NCBI RefSeq assembly: GCF_015775515.1
Contig: NZ_CP065383.1
Span: 2,976,001-3,040,000 of the forward strand
DNA length: 64,000 bases
Origin: Atribacter laminatus
GTDB taxonomy: Bacteria > Atribacterota > Atribacteria > Atribacterales > Atribacteraceae
Direction of reading: 5' to 3'
Part shown: positions 9,490 through 55,600 of the stretch, piece after piece
Layout: each line of letters opens with the position of its first letter
How positions within the stretch are numbered: position 1 is the stretch's first letter
Translations under genes and position numbers: made by a program
The notes under the pieces: generated by a model
Databases searched by the model: none
What the model was told of the DNA's origin: nothing
Seen by the model: the letters and a program-made list of their open reading frames with translations, nothing else

Positions 9490-9720
9490 ATGCAATTTAT
9501 TGTGCCCGGTCTTTATTTAATGTAGCGACATGCCATGGCATGTCGAATCTTGGATTTTCATCCTTATATCTGGTGCTGCCATGCAGAATGAGGGTCTATC
9601 TTGAGAAAATACTGGAATGATTAAAAAATGCTGTCATCTTGTGTCTAATTTTCTTCTCCTATTGCTCCCCCTCACCCCCTCGCGCCCTCTCCCCCTCAGC
9701 ATTTTTCATTCTCCTTATCA
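9490..9720. repeat. Repeat cluster R3 with perfect 20-bp palindrome
   Basis: Between the divergent sugar and peptide transporter operons. At 9526-9545 lies the perfect palindrome CGACATGCCATGGCATGTCG, in a longer dispersed module (TGCCCGGT..TTAATGTAG before it; AATCTTGGATTTTCATCC and GGTGCTGCCATGCAG after it). Close copies are at 12201-12220 (one mismatch) and 55359-55378; 2476-2495 is another perfect copy. A pyrimidine-rich CCCCTCACCCCCTCGCGCCCTCTCCCC stretch near 9666-9700 recurs at 12143-12173. From 9306 to 9489 I see no feature. Confidence 0.8.
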
Positions 9721-11605: not shown

Positions 11606-12260
11606 TCATCCAGAGGCTTCGCTTTATGAAGCCGTGAGGATCTCATCAACCCAATCCGTCATTGCGAAACCTGGTTTTTTGAGGTCGTGGAAATCTCATG
11701 AGTCATCTTTTATTATTTGTAGGATTGAGAAATTATGGAATTGGAATGTATGAGATTCTTATAATTTCCGGTAAAAAAACCGGACTCCTTATCATCACAG
11801 AAGAACTAAAAGAGATTGCCACGTCGCATAGGTCGCTCCTCGCAATGACGGAGTAGAAAAAAACTCAAATCCCCCTTACCCCCTTTTCTAAAGGGGGAGA
11901 TTGATCGGTATAAAGTCATTTTCATCATCTACCGGGTCTATAAATTGTCATTGCGAGACCTGGTTTTTTGAGGTCGTGGCAATCTTATGAGTTTAATCTT
12001 TTATTTGCTCTCTTGTAAACCTACGGGCATGATAAATCAAACCCCTATACAAAAGAATTAAAAAAATGCTGTCATCCTGAGCGGTGCTTTCCCGCGTGAG
12101 GATCTCATCATTTATATTTTTTTTATCCTTAAATCTTTTTCTCCCTTTCGCCCCCTCGCGCCCTCTCCCCCTCGGTCTTAACCGTGCCCGTTTAATGTAG
12201 CGACATACCATGGCATGTCGAATCTTGGGTTTTCATTCATATCTGATGCCATTGTTCGAC
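11606..12260. repeat. Repeat cluster R4 between binding protein and dppB
   Basis: No gene in 11570-12321. Palindromes in order: TCCT class near 11606-11647; TTGC class at 11660-11700; a decayed TTCT-class copy with CCGG..CCGG near 11754-11800; TTGC class at 11813-11850 (GAGATTGCCACGTCGC..CTCGCAATGAC); a CCCCCTT..AAGGGGG palindrome near 11866-11905; TTGC class at 11947-11990; TCCT class at 12071-12109; a pyrimidine stretch near 12143-12173; and the 20-bp palindrome family at 12201-12220. The 11660/11813 pair is an inverted doublet in the opposite orientation to the GIY-YIG units. Small open frames here (for example on the minus strand at 11993-12211) are read through repeats and are not genes. 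Confidence 0.85.
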
Positions 12261-16139: not shown

Positions 16140-17142
16140 TAAAGAGTGTGAAACGGGAGAGCCATTTCCCTTTTTTTCCTCGCCCCCTCACTCCCTTAGT
16201 ATTTAAAGCCGTGAGGATCTCTCTTTTATCTTTCCGCCTCTCCCTTTGACTCAAGAGGATTACTGCAATTCCTCCTCAATGAGGGAATGAATTCAACAAT
16301 TCTCCTCCTTGGAGGGGTGCCGCTTCGCGCGGGGGGGTGTGCCTTTAATTTGTCATCCCGAGCGGTTCTTTCCCGCGTGAGGATCTCATCTGACACCACC
16401 AGTGTCATCCTGAGGCTTCGTTTTTCGAAGCCGTGAGGATCTCATCTTTTATATTTTTTTAAAAATACTTTATAGGATGAAATTCTTATAATGTCCGGCA
16501 AAAAACACCGGACTCCTCAGAATAACCAAATTATTTAAATAGAGATTGCCACGTCGCACAAGACGCTCCTCGCAATCAGGCTGTGTCATAATTATTCTAT
16601 AAATTTTTTACCACCACTTAGGTTAATATTTTACAGGAATATTGGGAATAGATAACCAAAAAATTGAAGATAAATAGAACGATTCCTCCACTTTCAAGCT
16701 CTTCTTGGTGTATGAAAGGGATTGTGACACAGTCTGAATGACGGAACAGTAAAAAACTCAAATCCCCCTATCCCCCTTTTCTAAAGGGGGAATTTGATCG
16801 GTATAAAGTTATTTTCATCATCTACTGGGGCTTTTCAATATAAAATAAGTTGTCATTGCGAGACCTGGTTTTCTGAGGTCGTGGCAATCTCATGATTCAT
16901 CTTTTATTATTCATAGGATTGAGAAATTATGGAATTGTGGAATCGAAGTGAATGAGATTCATAAAATGACCGGCAAAAAACACCAGATTCCTCATAATGA
17001 CGAATTGGCTAAATGAGATTGCATCATCACTGCTTTCTACATAATAACAATTTAAATTATGTGTTTTTTCCGAATCAATTTTTAATACAAAGTGGTATAG
17101 TGGTTTACAAATCAATATTGAGGTGTGGGGAGAACCGAATTT
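16140..17142. repeat. Repeat cluster R5 (about 1 kb without a gene)
   Basis: TCCT-class palindromes at 16352-16390 and 16404-16446; a TTCT-class relic with CCGG pairs near 16470-16520; a TTGC-class palindrome starting at 16542 that is split by the MITE-like insertion 16577-16736 and resumes at 16737; a CCCCCTTTT..AAAGGGGG palindrome near 16758-16800; TTGC class at 16852-16893; and a second TTCT-class relic near 16950-17000 followed by a truncated TTGC palindrome at about 17017. The stretches after 11660 and after 16852 are homologous (GGATTGAGAAATTATGGAATTG in both), showing larger composite units. 17030-17142 is AT-rich with no recognisable feature. Confidence 0.85.
16577..16736. mobile_element. 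160-bp MITE-like insertion inside a REP palindrome
   Basis: Left end CAGGCTGTGTCATAAT and right end ATTGTGACACAGTCTG are 16-bp terminal inverted repeats matching at 14 positions. AAT stands on both sides (16574-16576 and 16737-16739) as a 3-bp target duplication. Removing the insert restores the standard palindrome end CTCGCAATGACGGA. No coding capacity inside. A transposase with matching ends is expected elsewhere in the genome; none is in the window, and I cannot assign the IS family. Confidence 0.8.
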
Positions 17143-55339: not shown

Positions 55340-55600
55340 TCGCACCTGGTTAAAGTAGCGACATGCCATGGCATGTCGAATCCTTTCTATCATCGCTATC
55401 TAGTGATGCTATGCAGCATGAGGGTCGATCCTGGAAATACCATCAAATGAATTCCGCCATTGAAGGGAGTTTGGGAGATGTGCCTTTAATCCGTCATCCT
55501 TGATCCTCTTTTTCTCGCCCTGATATTGTGAAGTGGCATGAGGGGTTATTCTGTAAAAATCAATCGAGTTTGATGAGTCAAGCCCTTAAAAAAGATTTTA
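55340..55600. repeat. Repeat cluster R8 between Clp and hydrogenase operons
   Basis: The 462-bp gap has the perfect palindrome CGACATGCCATGGCATGTCG at 55359-55378 in the same long module as at 9526 (TAAAGTAGCG before it, AATCC and TGCTATGCAGCATGAGGG after it), a decayed TCCT-class palindrome near 55490-55515, and a GGGCGCAATTCAATGCGTCC hairpin at about 55603-55625 that overlaps the stop codon end of the Clp gene and may act as its terminator. Confidence 0.75.

Follow-up and report, generated by a model that had tools for sequence, protein, structure and literature searches.

The 160-bp insert at 16577-16736 of the window (the whole 64,000-nucleotide stretch of Atribacter laminatus DNA that was analysed) is a genuine MITE, one of 24 copies in the genome. 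We consider it likely that our observations are jointly explained by the MITE, a resident full-length IS of the IS1182 family, and insertion into C-AWT-G cores, with CGTC-tagged palindromes strongly preferred.

The MITE and Its Genomic Copies

The insert lies between CTCGCAAT and GACGG and has the terminal inverted repeats CAGGCTGTGTCATAAT / ATTGTGACACAGTCTG (14/16 matching), the left one at 16577-16592 (+ strand) and the right one at 16721-16736 (- strand, CAGACTGTGTCACAAT). An AAT triplet stands on either side, at 16574-16576 and again at 16737-16739, as a 3-bp target duplication whose left copy also supplies, in the predicted fold, the outermost three stem bases of the adjoining palindrome. 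No ORF of at least 80 aa was found over the MITE, and there was no Rfam match close to the curated cut-off that would indicate a known RNA. The 3.10 Mb single-contig genome contains 23 further copies that are 74-98% identical to the window copy, and a search with the end motif CAGNCTGTGTCA gave 46 hits in the genome, as opposed to 0 for the reversed control, which rules out a chance likeness of the ends. The element is thus short, non-coding and multicopy, with terminal inverted repeats and a target duplication, as is characteristic of a MITE. All 24 copies are situated between larger predicted ORFs, with three overlapped only by short, spurious-looking ORFs.

An earlier note on this DNA had described the 160-bp insert, its 14/16 repeats and its AAT duplication, all of which were confirmed by the sequence. 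It had also proposed searches for other copies with these ends and for a full-length IS sharing them, along with checks on whether the copies sit inside palindromes and on empty sites in relatives. Each of these was fruitful: the first yielded the 24 MITEs, and the others are described below.

The Resident IS and Its Transposase

Four ISs of 1,751 bp with the same ends as the MITE are present in the genome (C1:59401, 1183538, 1444426, and 1498688). Each encodes one intact transposase ORF of 490 aa, and these are 98-100% identical among the four copies. We assigned the transposase to the IS1182 family based on its match to NF033551 (381.8 bits, cut-off 270) and on the family-like terminal inverted repeats: the IS ends are CAG[AG]CTGTGT, and IS1182 members from plasmids and Atribacterota have CAGACTGTGT / CAGACCGTGT / GAGGCTGTGT. 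At the domain level, the Pfam matches of the protein are DDE_Tnp_1_6, DUF772, and DDE_Tnp_1. A fifth, decayed IS copy (C1:155.7k), which is 76% identical and common to this genome and the congener G003, starts directly after the palindrome end GCAAT in this genome.

The MITE is most likely moved by the resident IS1182-family transposase, as judged from the shared ends. Only the ends are common to the MITE and the IS, the interior of the MITE being unrelated, and a deletion derivative of the IS is consequently an unsupported origin for the MITE. That unrelated interior would also suit a different source of mobility, namely another transposase, lost or unseen, with the resident IS sharing its ends by common descent. 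The decayed copy shared with G003 is in keeping with such a history, as is the fact that no full-length transposase gene was detected in the congeners G005 and G002, which have many MITEs, although their fragmented assemblies may explain this. We think another transposase unlikely, however, given that this genome has four intact ISs that match the MITE in both ends and target.

The Insertion Point at the Foot of a REP-Like Palindrome

The stem-loop part of the palindrome at the insertion site (16542-16576, - strand) is intact beside the insert. In the predicted fold, its outer stem is formed by ATTGC (16545-16549) pairing with GCAAT (16572-16576), and the CGTC end is unpaired. The displaced tag, GACGG at 16740-16744 (CCGTC on the - strand), was recognized from the sequence, the fold and the tag definition of PMC3733652. 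The fold places the insertion point where the unpaired CGTC tag meets the stem rather than in the paired part, and the stem persists in the prediction when the MITE end is attached; many similar palindromes are present in the window. Because the element would enter at this boundary, and its ATT/AAT duplication copies the three outermost positions of the stem, none of the pairing in the adjacent hairpin would be lost. The insert therefore appears to move only the CGTC tag away and to leave the hairpin whole. The earlier statement that the MITE interrupts the palindrome is correct in that the element sits at the conserved palindrome end, but the paired part is unbroken in the predicted fold.

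The predicted stem of the palindrome at the insertion site comprises 5 + 4 bp with internal loops, and because this fold is weak, with a stability no better than that of shuffles, we use the label "REP-like." It shares with CGTC-tagged REP families 1-4 the unpaired CGTC tag and a stem starting with AT, but lacks their 8-9 bp stem and 4-5 nt loop. A separate dispersed repeat in the window is built on the palindrome CGACATGCCATGGCATGTCG, with copies at 2469-2495, 9519-9545, 12194-12220, and 55352-55378, one of them with a mismatch.

Target Position Across the Genome

Twenty-four of the 27 two-ended insertions in this genome (4/4 ISs and 20/23 MITEs) are inside palindromes at the identical position. 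With the tag to the left, this target reads GTC (once CTC)-AWT / element / AWT-GCGAGG, that is, GTC-ATT/GCGAGG with a 3-bp ATT/AAT duplication. By the standard of PMC1525189, which lists ISs with >45% of copies in REPs and at least four copies, this is a strong REP association for both kinds of element. The core C-AWT-G is present in all 27 insertions and CAWTGC in 25 of them. The three exceptions to the common position are L015, which has tag sequence on both sides and is likely a recombinant; L021, at CATTGTG, within the loop of a palindrome that belongs to another class; and L023, at CAATGC outside any palindrome. No fixed orientation of the element relative to the palindrome was seen: the MITE is forward in 13 cases and reversed in eight, with two lacking a call, and the ISs are divided three and one.

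Two irregularities of the flanks were observed. Tag sequence is also present on both sides of the MITEs at L087 and L118, and these loci, together with L015, probably arose when copies, or palindromes in opposite orientations, recombined with each other. In addition, the duplication is unequal, with a mismatch in its central base (ATT vs. AAT), in about half of the congener MITEs (L083, L088, L092, L096, L111, L113, and L114 in G005 and G002), as opposed to one of 27 insertions in this genome (L014), and it is nearly always the stem-side copy that is altered. Point mutation seems an unlikely source of so many unequal duplications, for which gene conversion among copies and carry-over of donor flanks are candidate causes.

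Congeners and Other Phyla

MITEs, mostly at the same position, were found in the congeners G001, G002, G003, and G005, and G004 and the remaining genomes of the family yielded none. Related ISs were identified in Aminicenantes (65% identity), a MAG (61%) and Aerophobetes (62%), all flanked by ATT / element / ATTGCGA in REP-like sequence, and in the transposase tree these copies join those of the Atribacteria in a single clade (bootstrap 93). This cross-phylum sample is small and its members are 60-65% identical to the IS studied here. The IS from Spirochaetales (57% identity) lies just outside the clade and uses another target. More distant IS1182 members (31-37% identity), including ISPa7, have other targets and duplications; for example, a different palindrome (inverted CTGACTGCAAT / ATTGCAGTCAG) harbors a Polaromonas copy in its loop. 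No further close transposase was found outside the phylum in a wider sample of 386 genomes, and viral contigs had no relatives of the element. In the Aminicenantes locus L068 (~2865-2885), one ATT separates two element ends that point toward each other (CTGATTCAG), an arrangement that would arise if the triplet duplicated by one element had later served as the target of another.

Empty Sites and the Order of Events

The earlier note had held that the host palindrome can be rebuilt by removing the insert, and the sequence agrees: without the insert and one AAT, the site reads CTCGCAATGACGG, which is the state both of an intact palindrome in the window (11808-11857, - strand) and of the corresponding palindrome in the congener G005. 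The window copy is of the same palindrome kind and has the same tag (repeat families D13 and D15), and its right flank is ~90% identical over 96 bp to the flank of the MITE site (family D15). Empty sites were found in G005 for two of our loci. At L016, contig C93 of G005 matches both sides and has an uninterrupted CTCGCAATGACG, while at the window locus itself contig C225 has the left flank together with a MITE-free palindrome, CTTGCAATGACGG, after which the right flank differs. Within the same genome, the tandem array L065 (1-1001; C1:1091200-1092200) has intact 47-bp palindrome units beside two MITE-occupied units.

Based on the other copies, the palindromic sites, and the empty sites in the relative and in the same genome, the order in which the palindrome came first and the MITE second is well supported for the window site by these sequence comparisons. 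The earlier note had the same order, which it considered certain. A rival reading is that the MITE and the palindrome were amplified together as a composite repeat, so that the shared position reflects a single insertion. Several copies do share REP-associated flanks such as AAAACTCAAATCCCCCT, but the loops and outer flanks vary widely among occupied sites and the MITE is found in both orientations, which disfavors co-amplification; moreover, the same point is used by full ISs, including those of other phyla, and empty sites exist. We regard a composite repeat as very improbable.

The intergenic region around the insert (16140-17142), ~1 kb of palindromes and boxes, is represented by 47 bp in G003 (C186) and by ~430 bp in G005 (C225), and based on these lengths this repeat block grew or shrank fast.

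REP Preference or Short-Core Preference

The reading that the element targets REPs is upheld by the 24/27 insertions at one REP position, but a preference for a 6-bp core could explain much of this, and the phrase needs a caveat because such a preference, together with the loss of genic insertions, could mimic the pattern. The transposase would then read only CAWTGC, REPs would be hit as the main intergenic source of that motif, and the palindrome and tag would be irrelevant. Of the intergenic sites sampled (59 CAWTG sites, the same sites amounting to 118 when counted on both strands), 28/59 CAWTG sites and 28/34 CAWTGC sites (~82%) are in REPs. The observed 24/27 differs strongly from the expectation for a preference for CAWTG only (P = 8e-6), but not from that for a CAWTGC preference with loss of genic hits (P = 0.27). 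The occurrence of CAWTG at 27/27 sites and of CAWTGC at 25/27, the non-palindromic L023 being CAATGC, is likewise what a short-core preference would produce. Against it, 204 of the 264 intact GTCATTGCGAG copies in the genome continue with G, while all 24 of the occupied repeats do so (the GAGG kind; P about 0.002), a difference that hints that recognition reaches further into the stem. The recurrence of the pattern in other phyla also speaks against a bare CAWTGC preference, which we therefore view as possible but rather doubtful. For the palindrome preference that we favor, the data are compatible with recognition of either sequence or structure, and we infer that this preference is borne by the transposase, beyond an effect of survival alone.

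Discussion

IS1182 members and REP-targeting ISs are already known kinds of element; what is new here is their pairing, with a geometry that would preserve the hairpin. The resident IS resembles the IS1182 family in its NF033551 transposase, its single ORF of ~490 aa, its length of ~1.75 kb, and its ends of the CAGACTGTGT type found in plasmid members. It differs in its fixed insertion site, the base of CGTC-tagged palindromes, and in its 3-bp AWT duplication; the distant members compared have other targets and duplications. Targeting of palindromes by IS1182 members has been mentioned in the literature (PMC5678879, PMC4923244). IS1272 and TnSha1, which belong to the same transposase family, also insert at hairpins; IS1272, however, deletes the stem-loop, with no duplication and no sequence preference (PMC5678879, PMC4923244), whereas here the hairpin is kept in the predicted fold, ATT is duplicated, and the CAWTG core is invariant in this genome, so that this is not a stem-loop replacement of the IS1272 type.

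In their high REP selectivity, intergenic location, and many copies at one type of site, the elements described here resemble the known REP-targeting ISs, which include IS1397, ISKpn1, and ISPsy8 (IS3), IS621, ISPa11, and ISPpu9/10 (IS110), and ISRm22 (IS4) (PMC1525189). That 2006 survey covered five REP-targeting IS families (IS3, IS110, IS4, IS256, and IS5) and IS1182 was unmentioned. Published CGTC REPs have an unpaired tag and stems beginning with AT, and were reported without a dedicated transposase (PMC3733652). The palindromes here share the tag and the AT start, but they exceed the four published families in length and pair less perfectly. The IS in this genome uses such repeats as targets and does not move them. 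Neisseria dRS3, also a CGTC REP, is where phage Nf1 integrates (PMC3898611). We found no report in the open-access literature of an IS1182 element with a CGTC-palindrome target.

We infer the following reaction. The MITE would be non-autonomous, having only its terminal repeats in common with the 1,751-bp IS, and would be moved by the predicted DDE-type transposase of the latter. The transposase would make insertions with a 3-nt stagger at C-AWT-G cores, strongly preferring CGTC-tagged REP-like palindromes at the unpaired tag/stem junction. Repair of the stagger would duplicate the ATT with which the stem begins, so that the hairpin beside the element would retain every pair and the tag alone would be shifted. 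Because insertions at intergenic hairpins would spare genes, copies could survive and spread in repeat-rich hosts.

A broader proposal, that an IS1182 clade spanning several phyla is specialized on CGTC-tagged palindromes as safe landing sites, with the 3-bp duplication rebuilding the stem, is quite possible but is offered tentatively. If true, this clade would recognize the tag/stem junction and the host would not lose the function of its hairpin, and a REP superfamily previously without a known associated transposase would gain a linked IS lineage. Comparison with IS1272 could reveal how IS1182 transposases choose sequence or structure. As CGTC-tagged REPs are widespread, a cross-phylum clade recognizing the same point would be a handle on how proteins recognize these repeats, and a transposon may be able to land at a conserved host hairpin and leave it undamaged, in contrast to the removal of the hairpin by IS1272.
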